This document shows, piece by piece, positions 53,190 through 57,890 of a stretch of DNA of 64,000 bases (position 1 is its first letter; every line of letters begins with the position of its first letter). The position numbers and the translations under genes are program-made. The DNA is from Pseudonocardia sp. EC080619-01 (GTDB taxonomy: Bacteria; Actinomycetota; Actinomycetes; Mycobacteriales; Pseudonocardiaceae). Where the stretch lies: NCBI RefSeq assembly GCF_001420995.1, contig NZ_CP012184.1, positions 3,208,501-3,272,500 on the forward strand, written 5' to 3'. Below the pieces are notes generated by a model. It was not told where the DNA came from, did not search any database, and saw only the letters and a list, made by a program, of their open reading frames with translations.

Positions 53190-54308
53190 GTGCGCGTGGA
53201 CTCCGACGCGGCCTGGGCGCGGACCGTGGCGCGGCTGCGCAGGCGGGTGCCGGAGCTGGCGTCCGCGTTCCTCGCCCGGCTCGACGCCGAGGGGCGCTAC
53301 GACGACCAGCCCGTCACCCGGGAGGACCTGCGGGAGACCGCCGAGGCGTCGCTCGCACTGCTGGTCGACCAGCTCGGCCGCGGCGACGGCCGGATCGATC
53401 TCGGGGACCTGCCCGACCGGCTGGGTCGCCGGCGCGCCCGCCAGGGAGTGGACCTCGACGACCTGGTCCGTGCCGTCCGGCTCGACTTCCCGGTGCTCTG
53501 GTCGGCCCTGCTGGAACAGGCCGAGGACGCGGCGGCACTCGCCCCGCGGGCCGACCTGCTCTGGGCGGTCGTCGACGCCTACGCGCGCGAGGTGCACTTC
53601 GCCTTCCTCGGCGAGCGGGCACTCCTGGCCGAGCAGCAGCGCGACGAGCAGCGGCACCTGCTCGACCTGCTGTTCGGCGCGGGGCCCGCCGACGAGTACC
53701 GCGACGCCCGGCTCGCCACCGGCCTCGGCGTGTCCGAGGACGGGGCGTTCGCGGTGTGCGCCGCGCTGGCCGACCACGCGGCGACCCTGCGCGGCCGGGC
53801 CGCCCGCGCAGCCGGTGTGCACCTGCGCGACGTCGAGTTCGGCGTCGTCGTGTTCTGGGCGAGCGGAGCGCCCGGGGCCGGGCGGCTGCGCGACCGGCTC
53901 ACCGGCGGCATCGCCTGCGTCGTCGACGACGGTGTCGCGGGCCTCGCGGCGGTGCCCGGCGCGGCCGCGGCGCTGGTGCGGATGGCGCGGCTGCTCCCGC
54001 CGGACGTGGCCCGCCCGCGCGAGCCGCGCGACGTGTGGCCGCTGGTGGCCCGCCGCGCCCTCGACGAGCACGACGGGCTGGCCGGGCGGCTGCTGTCCGG
54101 GCTCGACGGCGCCCGCGAGGACGAGGCGGTGCTCCTGCGTGCGACCGCGCACGCCTACCTGGACTCGGGGAGCGTGTCCGAGGCCGCCGGGGTCCTCTAC
54201 TGCCACCGCAACACGGTGCTGAACCGGCTCCGCCGGTTCGCGCAGCTCACCGGCCTGGACCTGACCCGGCCGCGGGACGCGGCGCTCGCCGTCGTCCTAC
54301 TGGGGTGA
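53190..54308 (+). CDS. PucR family transcriptional regulator
   Basis: 372 residues. A helical N-terminal region (about 1-130) is followed by a GGDEF-like fold remnant and the C-terminal PucR HTH_30 domain: TAHAYLDSGSVSEAAGVLYCHRNTVLNRLRRF-type sequence near residue 312-345. Such regulators control purine, GABA or other catabolic genes. GTG at 53190 or 53196; no Shine-Dalgarno, 12 bp after the M20 stop, so it is probably cotranscribed with the hydrolase. Its 3' end overlaps the convergent TetR gene by 12 bp. Confidence 0.86.
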   Translation: MRVDSDAAWARTVARLRRRVPELASAFLARLDAEGRYDDQPVTREDLRETAEASLALLVDQLGRGDGRIDLGDLPDRLGRRRARQGVDLDDLVRAVRLDFPVLWSALLEQAEDAAALAPRADLLWAVVDAYAREVHFAFLGERALLAEQQRDEQRHLLDLLFGAGPADEYRDARLATGLGVSEDGAFAVCAALADHAATLRGRAARAAGVHLRDVEFGVVVFWASGAPGAGRLRDRLTGGIACVVDDGVAGLAAVPGAAAALVRMARLLPPDVARPREPRDVWPLVARRALDEHDGLAGRLLSGLDGAREDEAVLLRATAHAYLDSGSVSEAAGVLYCHRNTVLNRLRRFAQLTGLDLTRPRDAALAVVLLG

Positions 54309-54881
54309 GGGCGGGGGCCGGACGGCGCCGACCAGGCGGAGCGCGAACTCCACCTGCTGCCAGGCCACCTCGTTCTCGGTGGGCCCGGAGTCCTCCCGGA
54401 ACCACACCGCGACCCCCATCCCGAGGTCGAGGATCGCGTACGACGCGAGCCGCGGGTCGGTCACCCGGAACGCGCCGCGGTCGGTGCCGTCGGCGACCAG
54501 GGACCGGAAGCGCCGCTCGTACTCCGTGCGCAGCCCGACGACCTCGGAGCGGCGGGGCTCGACGAGGCTGCGCAGCTCGCGGGTCCCGACGAACGCCTCG
54601 CGCCGGTGCCGGGCGTGGAAGCGGACGTGCGCGTCGACCGCCCGGCGCAGGCGCTCCACCGGATCGTCCACACCGGACACAGCCGTGTCGTGCTCGCGGA
54701 GCAGCGCGGTCATCGTCTCCTCGATCACCGACGCGAGCAGGTCCTGCTTGGAGCTGACGTGCTTGTAGAGGCTGGGGCCGCGCATGCCCACGGCCGCGCC
54801 GATGTCGGCCATCGTCGTCGCCTCGTAGCCGCGGACGGCGAACTGCTCCAGCGCCGCCGCCCGGATCTCCGCCTCCCGCAC
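54297..54881 (-). CDS. TetR family transcriptional regulator of the adjacent acyl-CoA dehydrogenase operon
   Basis: 194 residues. Helix-turn-helix at about 5-50 (EIRAAALEQFAVRGYEATTMADIGAAVGMRGPSLYKHVSSK-type, with PSLYKHV as the recognition helix), then an all-helical TetR_C-like domain. GTG at 54881 follows GGGAG. It is divergent from the acyl-CoA dehydrogenase at 54987 and a dyad operator lies between them, the classical TetR repressor layout (FadR/PsrA-like, acyl-CoA-responsive is inferred). Confidence 0.9.
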   Translation of the reverse strand: MREAEIRAAALEQFAVRGYEATTMADIGAAVGMRGPSLYKHVSSKQDLLASVIEETMTALLREHDTAVSGVDDPVERLRRAVDAHVRFHARHRREAFVGTRELRSLVEPRRSEVVGLRTEYERRFRSLVADGTDRGAFRVTDPRLASYAILDLGMGVAVWFREDSGPTENEVAWQQVEFALRLVGAVRPPPSPQ

Positions 54882-54947: not shown

Positions 54948-54967
54948 TGGCTAATTATCATTAGCCA
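54948..54967. promoter_or_regulatory. TetR-type operator TGGCTAAT-N4-ATTAGCCA
   Basis: Perfect 8-bp inverted repeat around TATC, the most AT-rich spot for kilobases, 19 bp before the acyl-CoA dehydrogenase start and 66 bp from the TetR start. It overlaps a possible -10 region (CTAATTAT), so binding would block transcription. AGGAGGAG just downstream is the dehydrogenase ribosome-binding site. Confidence 0.75.
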
Positions 54968-54986
54968 ATCATCATCAGGAGGAGAC

Positions 54987-56168
54987 ATGGCCGTCGACTT
55001 CACCCTCGACCCTCAGGTGGCCGAGCTCGCCGAGCGCACGTCCCGGTTCGTCCGGGAGACGGTGATCCCGGTCGAGGAGGCGCACGACGGCGTCGTCCCG
55101 TCCGAGGACGTCCGCCGCGAGCTGCAGGACGGGGCCCGCGCCGCCGGGGTGTTCGCGCCGCACGCGGCCGTCGAGTTCGGCGGGCACGGGCTGGACATGC
55201 GCGCCCGCGCCGCGGTGTTCGAGGAGGCCGGCTACTCGCTGCTCGGGCCGCTCGCGCTGAACATCGCCGCCCCCGACGAGGGCAACGTCCACATGCTCGA
55301 GCAGATCGCCACCGAGGACCAGAAGGTCCGCTACCTGGCGCCGCTGGCCGCCGGCGACGTCCGCTCCTGCTTCGCCATGACCGAGCCCGCCCCCGGTGCA
55401 GGCTCCGACCCGGACGCGCTCGCCACCGTCGCCACCCGGGTCGACGGCGGCTGGCGGATCGACGGGCACAAGTGGTTCATCACCGGTGCGGACGGCGCGG
55501 CGTTCGCGATCGTCATGGCCCGCACCGCCGGCGTCCCCGGCGAGCGCGGCGGGGCGACGATGTTCCTGGTCGACGCGTCCAACCCGGGGATGAAGATCGG
55601 CAGGCACATCCCGACGCTGGACGAGTCGCTCTACGGCGGCCACCTCGAGGTCGAGTTCTCCGACTGCCGGGTCGGCGACGACGCCGTGCTCGGCGAGGTC
55701 GACCAGGGCTACCGCTACGCCCAGGTCCGGCTCGGCCCGGCCCGGATGACGCACTGCATGCGCTGGCTGGGTCTCGCCCGCCGGGCGCAGGACATCGCCG
55801 TCGCCCGGGCCGCGGACCGGAAGCTGTTCGGGTCCCGGCTGGCCGACCTGGGCATGGCGCAGGCGATGGTCGCGGACAACGAGATCGACCTGCACGCCTC
55901 GCGCGGCCTGATCCTGCGGGCCTGCTGGGAGCTGGACCAGGGGCGCAGTGCCGGGATGGAGGTGTCGATCGCGAAGACCTTCACCGCGGAGGCCGTGTGG
56001 CGGGTCGTCGACCGGTCGCTGCAGCTCTGCGGCTCGCTCGGGGTCTCGGGGGACATCCCGCTCGGGCGGTTCCTGCGCGAGGTGCGCCCGTTCCGGATCT
56101 ACGACGGCCCGTCGGAGACCCACCGCTGGTCGATCGCCAAGCGCGTCGTGGGGCGGGCGACCCGATGA
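54987..56168 (+). CDS. Acyl-CoA dehydrogenase (ACAD10/11-like subgroup)
   Basis: 393 residues. FAMTEPAPGAGSDPDAL near residue 130 and DGHKWFITGADGAAFAIVMART near 158 are the FAD/substrate motifs; helical domain after about 235 with KLFGSRLADLGMAQAMVADNEIDLHASR. At the usual catalytic-base position the sequence reads YDGPSETHR near 371, so Asp rather than Glu precedes Gly, a feature of the ACAD10/11-type subgroup rather than of straight-chain dehydrogenases. Followed in overlap (ATGA) by a phosphotransferase of the kind fused to such dehydrogenases in animals. Confidence 0.9.
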   Translation: MAVDFTLDPQVAELAERTSRFVRETVIPVEEAHDGVVPSEDVRRELQDGARAAGVFAPHAAVEFGGHGLDMRARAAVFEEAGYSLLGPLALNIAAPDEGNVHMLEQIATEDQKVRYLAPLAAGDVRSCFAMTEPAPGAGSDPDALATVATRVDGGWRIDGHKWFITGADGAAFAIVMARTAGVPGERGGATMFLVDASNPGMKIGRHIPTLDESLYGGHLEVEFSDCRVGDDAVLGEVDQGYRYAQVRLGPARMTHCMRWLGLARRAQDIAVARAADRKLFGSRLADLGMAQAMVADNEIDLHASRGLILRACWELDQGRSAGMEVSIAKTFTAEAVWRVVDRSLQLCGSLGVSGDIPLGRFLREVRPFRIYDGPSETHRWSIAKRVVGRATR

Positions 56169-57175
56169 GCCCCGACGGTCTCGACCTCCACGCGCTCGAC
56201 GGCTTCCTGAAGGAGCACGTCGACGGCTACCGCGGCGGCGTCACCGCGGAGCTGGTCTCCGGCGGCCGGTCCAACCTGACCTACCGGGTCACCGACGGCG
56301 AGTCGGTCTGGGTGCTCCGCCGCCCGCCGCTGGGGAACCTCACCCCGTCGGCACACGACATGGGCCGCGAGTACCGGTTCGTCGCCGCCCTCGCCGGGTC
56401 CGGGGTGCCGGTCGCCCCGGCCGTCGCACTGGCCGACGAGTCGGTGATCGGCGTGCCGTTCGCCCTCACCGGATTCGTCGACGGCGTCGTGGTCCGCAGC
56501 GAGGACGACCTCGACGCGTACACCGACGGGCAGGTCCGTGACACCGCGTTCGCGCTGGTCGACACGCTCGCGGCGCTGCACGCGGTGGACGCGACCACCG
56601 GGGCGGTGTCCGGGCTCGGGAAGCCGGCCGGGTACCTGCGCCGCCAGGTCGACCGCTGGTACTCGCAGTGGGAACGGGTGAAGACCCGCGAGCTCGGCGA
56701 CGTCGAGGCCCTCTACGCCCGGCTGGACGCGATCTGCCCGGCCGAGAGCGACGCCGCCGTCGTACACGGCGACTACCGCATCGACAACGCGATCCTCGAT
56801 CCCGCCGACCCGACCCGGATCCGGGCGCTCGTCGACTGGGAGATGGCGACCCTCGGCGACCCGCTCGCCGACCTCGCGCTGCACACGGCCTACGGCGACC
56901 CGGTCTTCGCGCCGGTGCTGGCCGGGTCGGCGGCGTCGACGAGCGCCCGCATGCCGGGTGCCGACGAGCTGGTCGAGCGCTACGTCGCCACCTCCGGGCG
57001 GGAGCCGCGGGACTGGTCGTTCCACCGGGGCCTCGCCTACTTCAAGATCGCGGTGATCGCGGAGGGCATCCACGAGCGGCACGTCCGCGGGGACACCCGG
57101 GGCGACGGCTTCGCGACCGTCGGGGAGGCCACCGCGCCCCTCGCAGCCGCAGGCCTGACGGCCGCGACCACCTGA
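56165..57175 (+). CDS. APH-fold phosphotransferase family protein (ACAD10/11 kinase-domain type)
   Basis: 336 residues with the aminoglycoside-phosphotransferase/choline-kinase fold. N-lobe: GGRSNLTYRVTDGESVWVLRRPPLG near residue 33-58; catalytic loop VVHGDYRIDNAILDP near 199-213; metal-binding DWEMATLGDPLADLA near 224-238; C-terminal AYFKIAVIAEGIHERHVRG near 294. It is not an antibiotic-resistance gene: this subgroup acts in lipid metabolism, and the homologous LvaA/ACAD11 kinase phosphorylates 4-hydroxyacyl-CoA. Translationally coupled to the acyl-CoA dehydrogenase. Confidence 0.88.
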   Translation: MSPDGLDLHALDGFLKEHVDGYRGGVTAELVSGGRSNLTYRVTDGESVWVLRRPPLGNLTPSAHDMGREYRFVAALAGSGVPVAPAVALADESVIGVPFALTGFVDGVVVRSEDDLDAYTDGQVRDTAFALVDTLAALHAVDATTGAVSGLGKPAGYLRRQVDRWYSQWERVKTRELGDVEALYARLDAICPAESDAAVVHGDYRIDNAILDPADPTRIRALVDWEMATLGDPLADLALHTAYGDPVFAPVLAGSAASTSARMPGADELVERYVATSGREPRDWSFHRGLAYFKIAVIAEGIHERHVRGDTRGDGFATVGEATAPLAAAGLTAATT

Positions 57176-57193
57176 CCGCCCCGCGCTTCCCGC

Positions 57194-57890
57194 CGGCGCT
57201 CACCGGACCTGCCGGTGCTCACCGGACCTGCCGGTGCTCACCGGACCCGCGGGCGCCCACCGGACCCGCGGGCGCTCACCGGTTCCGGTGGCGCTGAGGG
57301 GATCCGTCGGTGCCCACGGGCCTGTCGGCGCTCACCGTTTCCGATGGCGCTCACTTCTTCCGTCCGCGCTCGCGCGATCGGGTGAGCGTTGCTGGAACAT
57401 GTGAGCGCGGGGATCCGTCGGGCGTCTGCGGGCCTGTCGGCGCTCACCGCTTCCGGTGGCGCTCACCGCTTCCGGTGGCACTCAGGATCCGGTGGCGCTC
57501 GCAGGACCCGGTGGCGCTCACCGCATCTGCCGGTGCTCACGGGATCCGGGGCGCGGCGTTCACAGACCCTGCCGGTGCTCACCGATCGGTGGCCCTGACG
57601 GGATCGGTCGGCGTCCACGGGTCTGCCGGCGCTCACGGTTTCCGGTGGCGCTCGCCTGTTGTGTCGTCGCTCGTGCGATCGGGTGGGCGTTGCCGGAACA
57701 GGTGAGCGCGGATCGGTCGGCGTCCGCGGGCGTGCTGGCTCTCACGGGACCTGCCGGTGCTCACCGATCGGTGGTCCTGACGGGACCGGTCGGCGTCCAC
57801 GGGTCTGGCGGCGCTCACGGTTTCCGGTGGCGCTCATCTGTTGTGTCGGAGCTCGCCCGATCGCGTGAGCGTTGCCGCAACAGGTGAGCG
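57194..57890. repeat. About 700-bp array of degenerate 19-bp repeats in both orientations, gene-free
   Basis: Most of the gap between two convergent genes is built from units close to CGGTGCTCACCGGACCTGC, sharing the core CGCTCAC (or GTGCTCAC) every 18-20 bp with a variable dozen bases between. In three places the unit is inverted (two GTGAGCG exactly 19 bp apart, e.g. 57382 and 57401). Several units hold small palindromes: CACCGATCGGTG (57580 and 57762 regions) and CACCG-CTTC-CGGTG. A 140-bp block at 57569-57708 recurs at 57751-57890, and an older copy is seen at about 57297-57408. No reading frame is supported. It is not a CRISPR array: there is no constant repeat of 28-37 bp and no unique spacers. 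Confidence 0.85.

Follow-up and report, generated by a model that had tools for sequence, protein, structure and literature searches.

A divergent TetR, an acyl-CoA dehydrogenase and a kinase in Pseudonocardia: a predicted module for 4-hydroxyacyl-CoA phosphorylation and elimination

Introduction

The closest described counterparts of the locus studied here are the animal proteins ACAD10 and ACAD11 and the lva operon of Pseudomonas. According to the accessible parts of the sources (PMC12440821 among them), ACAD10/11 follow a published phosphorylation-elimination route, which has also been proposed for LvaA/LvaC. The accessible part of PMC12440821 ascribes the elimination of phosphate from 4-phosphoacyl-CoA to residues R626, H634 and R637 of ACAD11 (the HCMR motif) together with the base D753, and describes conventional acyl-CoA dehydrogenases (ACADs) as being without the three pocket residues. 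Substituting these residues ablates elimination, and the 4-phospho-intermediate accumulates; the R637K variant is impaired in turnover in part only (PMC12440821, same part). ACAD10/11, which bear the pocket residues, were inactive on plain acyl-CoAs in the assay published there.

The animal proteins carry kinase and dehydrogenase as one fused protein, whereas the lva operon encodes them as separate genes. The P. putida gene numbers given in the accessible part of PMC6692424 yield the order lvaR-A-B-C-D-E-F-G. This operon comprises the LvaA kinase, LvaB, the ACAD LvaC, the SDR LvaD, a ligase, a transporter and the PrpR-like regulator LvaR. We describe a TetR-ACAD-kinase locus of Pseudonocardia sp. 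EC080619-01 and compare it with both systems.

Results

Organization of the locus

The window, that is, the whole stretch of 64,000 nucleotides that was analysed, belongs to a genome of 7.2 Mb, and the nearest named relative of the locus is found in Pseudonocardia parietis (ACAD 91% identity). The features of the locus are collected in Table 1. The open reading frames given in the original prediction were exact (ACAD, 54987-56168; kinase, 56165-57175), and the translational coupling that it proposed is supported by the ATGA in which the kinase start overlaps the ACAD stop by 4 bases; such a 4-base overlap recurs in 53 of the 76 relatives with a kinase on the same strand, their starts being inferred by alignment. 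In animal ACAD10/11 the same two domains form a single chain, in contrast to the two overlapping frames found here.

Table 1. Coordinates of the features of the TetR-ACAD-kinase locus (window positions unless a locus is named)
Feature	Position	Strand	Remarks
TetR-family repressor, 194 aa, GTG start, divergent from the pair	54297..54881	-	Pfam TetR_N + TetR_C_24
Operator candidate TGGCTAAT-TATC-ATTAGCCA	54948..54967		Perfect 8-base inverted repeat, 4-base spacer
RBS-like AGGAGGA 5' of the ACAD start	54977..54983	+	Direct sequence reading
ACAD, LvaC-side clade, predicted 4-phosphoacyl-CoA phospho-lyase	54987..56168	+	393 aa; Pfam Acyl-CoA_dh N, M and C domains
Codons of RLGPARMTHCMR, ACAD residues 248-259	55728..55763	+	R248, R253, H256, R259
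ACAD D373 codon, catalytic base, equivalent to ACAD11 D753	56103..56105	+	D in 80/80 relatives
APH-fold kinase, 336 aa, predicted 4-hydroxyacyl-CoA kinase	56165..57175	+	Pfam APH, E 5e-44
Kinase catalytic loop HGDYRIDN	56765..56788	+	D203, N208
Kinase metal-binding DWE	56834..56842	+	D224
Histidine-phosphatase-family gene	L112:5246-6007, L162:9381-10058, L108:8475-9128, L160:1453-2124		

Within the window, no acyl-CoA synthetase, SDR or LvaF/G-type transporter adjoins the pair downstream, unlike in the lva operon. The neighbouring genes belong to the M20 peptidase, PucR-type regulator, aldo/keto reductase, CBS, CMD, MarR, metallo-beta-lactamase fold and FAD monooxygenase families, and no functional link between these window genes and the pair was found. 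Separately, an imperfect 19-base repeat around GCGCTCACCGGA forms two arrays (about 8 and 6 copies, 57189-57554) that lie between the kinase gene and the convergent aldo/keto reductase gene.

The ACAD has the pocket residues and Asp base of the eliminating enzymes

Alignment with mouse ACAD11 equates R248, R253, H256 and R259 of the window ACAD with R626, R631, H634 and R637. The YDGPSE motif that had been noted at the base position is present, and its D373 corresponds to the base. Conservation was examined in 80 named loci, the best 80 of 388 relatives and therefore the closest ones rather than a random draw. In the alignment, R248, H256, R259 and D373 occur in the window ACAD and in 80/80 relatives. 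The Cys of the HCMR motif is replaced by Val in 14 of these 80, and at two pocket-helix positions all 80 differ from ACAD11, with Ala in place of G630 and Thr in place of H633.

The usual catalytic base of ACADs is Glu. As a control set, 20 ACAD loci fetched from the same genome, out of its 44 ACAD matches, were compared at these positions. The equivalents of R248, H256, R259 and D373 were found together in four of the 20 (the window ACAD, L002, L003 and L004), and the complete set was absent from the other 16; an Asp base was present in 4/20. R253 is general to ACADs, as it occurs in 19 of the 20 loci.

The predicted structural model of the ACAD had a pLDDT of 84, with values below 50 for residues 368-382 around the base. 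Its best structural match was 4hr3 (Z 43.0, rmsd 2.7, 368 residues aligned), and human ACAD11 (2wbi) matched with Z 41.8 and rmsd 2.9 over 365 residues. The ordinary short-chain ACAD 8sgs (Z 40.4) scored about the same as the ACAD11 entry 8v3u (Z 40.3), and the comparison does not sharply separate the window ACAD from ordinary ACADs, which come next at Z 40. Considering fold, Asp base and pocket together, we infer that the window ACAD belongs to the superfamily that eliminates phosphate from 4-phosphoacyl-CoA (LvaC/ACAD10/ACAD11), and elimination is its predicted activity.

Phylogenetic position of the ACAD

A reference for LvaC was provided by locus L168, a Pseudomonas aeruginosa plasmid on which prpR, kinase, lvaB, ACAD, SDR, acyl-CoA synthetase, DUF485 and symporter genes lie in a row. 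One gene is named lvaB in the record, its product being a DUF6285 protein; from this name and the lvaR-A-B-C-D-E-F-G order, the ACAD of L168 was taken as LvaC-like. The label is thus defined by the gene order of the plasmid operon and not by LvaC of strain KT2440. The window ACAD is 52% identical to this LvaC-like protein and 36% identical to ACAD11, and the LvaC-like protein itself is 36% identical and 54% similar to human ACAD11.

A tree of 47 ACADs places the window protein and the LvaC-like protein in one clade (98/89) and ACAD11 in another (100/99), with a second group that is also separate (99/99). A topology uniting the window clade with both of the latter was rejected (p-AU 2.5e-4), in a test defined, like the others used here, after the first tree had been seen. 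This result excludes the ACAD as a bacterial orthologue of ACAD10/11. The ACAD11-type protein of this genome is encoded by a separate gene (L004, C1:3488579-3489736; 57% identity to human ACAD11), and the genome-wide lists contain no APH-family match near it.

The original prediction had called the pair a split version of ACAD10/11. The separate kinase and ACAD and the shared pocket and base agree with that description, but orthology does not, since the ACAD separates from the ACAD11 clade when analysed together with ACAD11 sequences. The functional part of the prediction stands, because the LvaC group is another branch of the same chemistry; ACAD10/ACAD11 and their bacterial clade have the same pocket residues, Asp base and kinase fold as the window pair.

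The accessible part of PMC11342911 prints 62% and 56% identity between LvaC and ACAD10/11. If these figures were true identities, LvaC would fall in the ACAD11 clade and the label LvaC-like would be wrong; alternatively, they may be similarities, or LvaC of KT2440 may be unlike the L168 protein. On the basis of those figures, L004 was considered as a stand-in for LvaC, a choice overturned by the lvaB gene of L168 and the gene order from the available part of PMC6692424. The conflict touches the name LvaC-type and neither the pocket nor the chemistry.

The kinase lies outside the LvaA group

The APH-type catalytic core is intact in the window kinase, with an HxDxxxxN-type loop and a metal-binding Asp, and the H, G, D and N of HGDYRIDN and the D, W and E of DWE are invariant in 76/76 kinases. 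Among solved structures, the kinase comes closest to 9o56, 3dxp and mouse ACAD11 (E 2e-53 to 2e-44); antibiotic kinases, APH(3') included, match weakly (E 4.5e-9 or worse), far under their cut-offs. PDB entry 3dxp, a kinase of the same family, carries the name putative acyl-CoA dehydrogenase, a label that may stem from fused ACAD10/11-type proteins. Of the six kinase-family matches in the genome, only the window kinase lies beside an ACAD gene; the remaining five are about 6, 9 or 11 kb or more than 100 kb away from the nearest ACAD matches.

The kinase is 31% identical to the ACAD11 kinase and 25% identical to the LvaA type. In the unrooted kinase tree, six LvaA-type kinases, each beside a listed DUF6285 gene, stand apart at 100/100, and joining the window kinase to them was rejected (p-AU 0.0013); an LvaA-type assignment was discarded on these grounds. 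The window kinase falls in the large remaining group, which also contains the ACAD11 kinase in a different subgroup. The kinases that accompany the ACAD clade of the window protein do not form a single group (p-AU 8e-8), and since kinase types differ within this ACAD clade, kinase partners have been exchanged. Judged from these trees, the pair joins an ACAD of the LvaC side to a kinase that does not belong to the LvaA group.

The lva operon also includes LvaB. A search of the genome with PF19802 (DUF6285) gave no match at E 0.001, while the same search was positive in 2 of 14 control genomes. NCBIfam returned no specific model for LvaB-like or LvaA-like proteins.

Conservation of the pair and the neighbouring SDR

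In 76 of the 80 loci, a kinase starts within 200 bases downstream of the ACAD on the same strand, which argues against a chance pairing. Two of the four remaining sequences end early (L073, 1 base past the ACAD match; L075, 685 bases past it); L066 and L077 have room downstream and lack the kinase, leaving ACAD and TetR or ACAD alone. A class-wide sample of 29 further loci, which may partly duplicate species among the 80, contained the kinase in 27. A relative with at least 54% identity occurs in 53 of 296 genomes of the class, with this genome counted. Among plasmid-borne relatives of the ACAD clade, the kinase was in view in 15 of the 18 fetched (not in L110, L113 and L119). Two Prauserella genomes have a second ACAD-kinase pair (L033:2622-4915 and L037:2614-4907) just upstream, on the opposite strand and back to back with the first; it belongs to another subgroup, with 35% identity to the window ACAD.

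An SDR gene follows the kinase within 300 bases in 51/76 loci, including those of Pseudonocardia L029 and L030, but none was found after the kinase in the window or in the nearest relatives L027 and L028. Identity to the LvaD-like SDR of L168 is 44% for the L030 SDR, compared with 31-34% for four control SDRs, 31% for the SDR of Nocardia L081 and about 33% for those of plasmids L164 and L165; the SDRs therefore differ between groups. Elsewhere, this genome encodes SDRs that are 68-71% like that of L030, the 71% match spanning one stop. Apart from the TetR, ACAD, kinase and SDR genes, the most widely shared family occurs in just 26/80 loci, at variable positions.

Two further associations were seen in the wider set. 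Operons of both ACAD clades repeatedly contain a gene of the histidine-phosphatase family (Table 1), whose product might clear stalled 4-phospho-intermediates. In one Streptomyces group (L078, L079, L085, L087, L089, L091-L093, L096, L098 and L105), at about 9.0-11.9 kb, the opposite strand after the module carries a gene for a metallo-beta-lactamase-fold hydrolase, its fold assigned by Pfam on the L096 member, and a gene read by eye as an AMP-binding ligase. It is possible that hydrolase and ligase form a lactone-opening and activation pair.

A conserved operator candidate accompanies the TetR orthologues

Described TetR repressors of acyl-CoA genes are divergent, with a palindromic site between the genes, and the window TetR is arranged in the same way. 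Its nearest NCBIfam model is SACE_7040, with 76 bits against a cut-off of 250. A divergent TetR orthologue with at least 50% identity lies within 600 bases in 48/80 loci.

The 130 bases before each ACAD were searched for at least 11 of the 14 fixed positions of GGCTAAT-N4-ATTAGCC. A site was found in 48/48 loci with the TetR orthologue (15 of them perfect), in 0/14 with a different divergent TetR and in 6/18 where no TetR was found; because the pattern was derived from the same loci, it is the comparison with the other-TetR loci that carries the weight. Random 130-base stretches from the same loci contained 0/4648, 0/1360 and 1/1722 sites for these three classes, and mono-nucleotide shuffles of the upstream stretches gave 11/4800, 7/1400 and 3/1800. 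In the class sample, the site was present in 17/17 loci with the TetR orthologue and in 0/12 without it. The consensus of the candidate, GGCTAAY-N4-RTTAGCC, differs from the operators of the TetR repressors of acyl-CoA genes mentioned above, and no description of it was met in the literature search.

With up to 3 mismatches allowed, the window site is unique in its genome, where a reversed control pattern has two matches. The divergent regulator gene, together with the conservation and uniqueness of this operator candidate, supports the proposal that the pair is under its own TetR. From this arrangement we infer that TetR binds the palindrome and represses the pair. A scan of the upstream sequence for sigma-70-type promoters found none.

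In the Nocardia and Rhodococcus loci among L080-L106 the divergent TetR is of another kind, at about 30% identity, and many Nocardiaceae loci in that range show another palindrome near -128, TGTTCAG...CTGAACA. This combination is likely to reflect replacement of the regulator.

Discussion

We consider it probable that the locus is a TetR-controlled two-gene catabolic module for the phosphorylation of 4-hydroxyacyl-CoAs and their subsequent elimination to 2-enoyl-CoA. The kinase would use ATP to place a phosphate on the 4-hydroxyl of a 4-hydroxyacyl-CoA, giving 4-phosphoacyl-CoA, and would work without LvaB. In the ACAD, D373 as base and the FAD would act on this intermediate while R248, H256 and R259 hold the phosphate, which would then be eliminated without net electron transfer; the 2-enoyl-CoA formed would enter ordinary beta-oxidation. 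TetR would sit on the 20-base operator just 5' of the ACAD gene and would probably be released by a CoA-ester of the pathway. In many relatives the SDR by the kinase, LvaD-like in some, would reduce 4-oxoacyl-CoA to 4-hydroxyacyl-CoA; in this genome that reduction would be supplied from elsewhere or be unneeded. That the pair is kept while kinase types are exchanged fits sequential steps on one metabolite. Points that weigh against this reading are that synthetase, SDR and transporter genes were not found downstream of the pair in the window, that two of the 80 loci have room for a kinase gene but lack it, that ordinary ACADs reach the structural score of one ACAD11 entry, and that the LvaC identities printed in PMC11342911 disagree with the label LvaC-like; the counts in the 80 loci, moreover, describe the nearest relatives.

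Levulinate is one substrate candidate among several. An actinobacterial lva pathway, in which the pair acts on 4-hydroxyvaleryl-CoA from levulinic acid, seems rather unlikely to us, even with an ACAD on the LvaC side, an L030 SDR at 44% identity to the LvaD-like protein (controls 31-34%) and some SDR in 51/76 loci. CoA ligase, SDR and LvaF/G-type transporter do not adjoin the pair, the genome has no LvaB match, the kinase is not of the LvaA type, and the regulator is a TetR in place of a PrpR-like LvaR. In addition, the next shared gene family reaches only 26/80 loci at no fixed place, and the SDRs of L081, L164 and L165 are just 31-34% like LvaD. A more specific form of the module reading, which we put forward tentatively and at less than even chances, is an LvaB-independent mix-and-match pathway that combines an LvaC-type eliminase with a non-LvaA kinase. 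Its substrates would be 4-hydroxyacyl-CoAs from sources other than levulinate, for example gamma-lactones or lipid oxidation, and its TetR would sense 4-hydroxy- or 4-phosphoacyl-CoA.

That the ACAD is instead an ordinary one, passing electrons to ETF next to a kinase with some other substrate, appears improbable. Asp for the Glu base and two Arg and a His in the pocket in 80/80 relatives, the lack of this set from 16/20 ACAD loci of the genome and the retention of the pair despite kinase exchange all speak against it, as does the inactivity of ACAD10/11 on plain acyl-CoAs (PMC12440821, accessible part); the full ACAD fold is what it has in its favour, 8sgs (Z 40.4) tying with 8v3u (40.3), below 2wbi (41.8) and 4hr3 (43.0). 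Least credible, to the point of being nearly negligible, is a resistance or regulatory phosphotransferase that stands beside the ACAD by chance. Membership in the APH family and the weak antibiotic-kinase matches (E 4.5e-9 or worse) would suit such an enzyme, yet the best solved relatives are 9o56, 3dxp and ACAD11 (E 2e-53 to 2e-44), and the coupling to the ACAD is found in 76/80 loci. The catabolic module is the preferred reading.

The chemistry and both folds are already known. As far as the literature searched shows (most subscription papers lay outside it), three things are new: the TetR-ACAD-kinase module of actinobacteria together with its operator, a pairing that does without LvaB, and the swapping of kinase partners. 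In the levulinate and 4-hydroxyvalerate literature with Rhodococcus, nothing on the present pair was found; the searches returned no papers on DUF6285 and nothing relevant on FadE36.

If active as predicted, the pair would offer a small bacterial system, amenable to genetics, for the two reactions of ACAD10/11, with the enzymes on separate chains, so that the elimination mechanism can be dissected. Should the inducer be confirmed, the conserved operator could serve directly as a biosensor element for 4-hydroxyacyl-CoAs. The exchange of kinases across one ACAD clade suggests that a phosphorylated CoA-ester, and no fixed protein complex, links the two steps, and it predicts that halves of different systems may be mixed.
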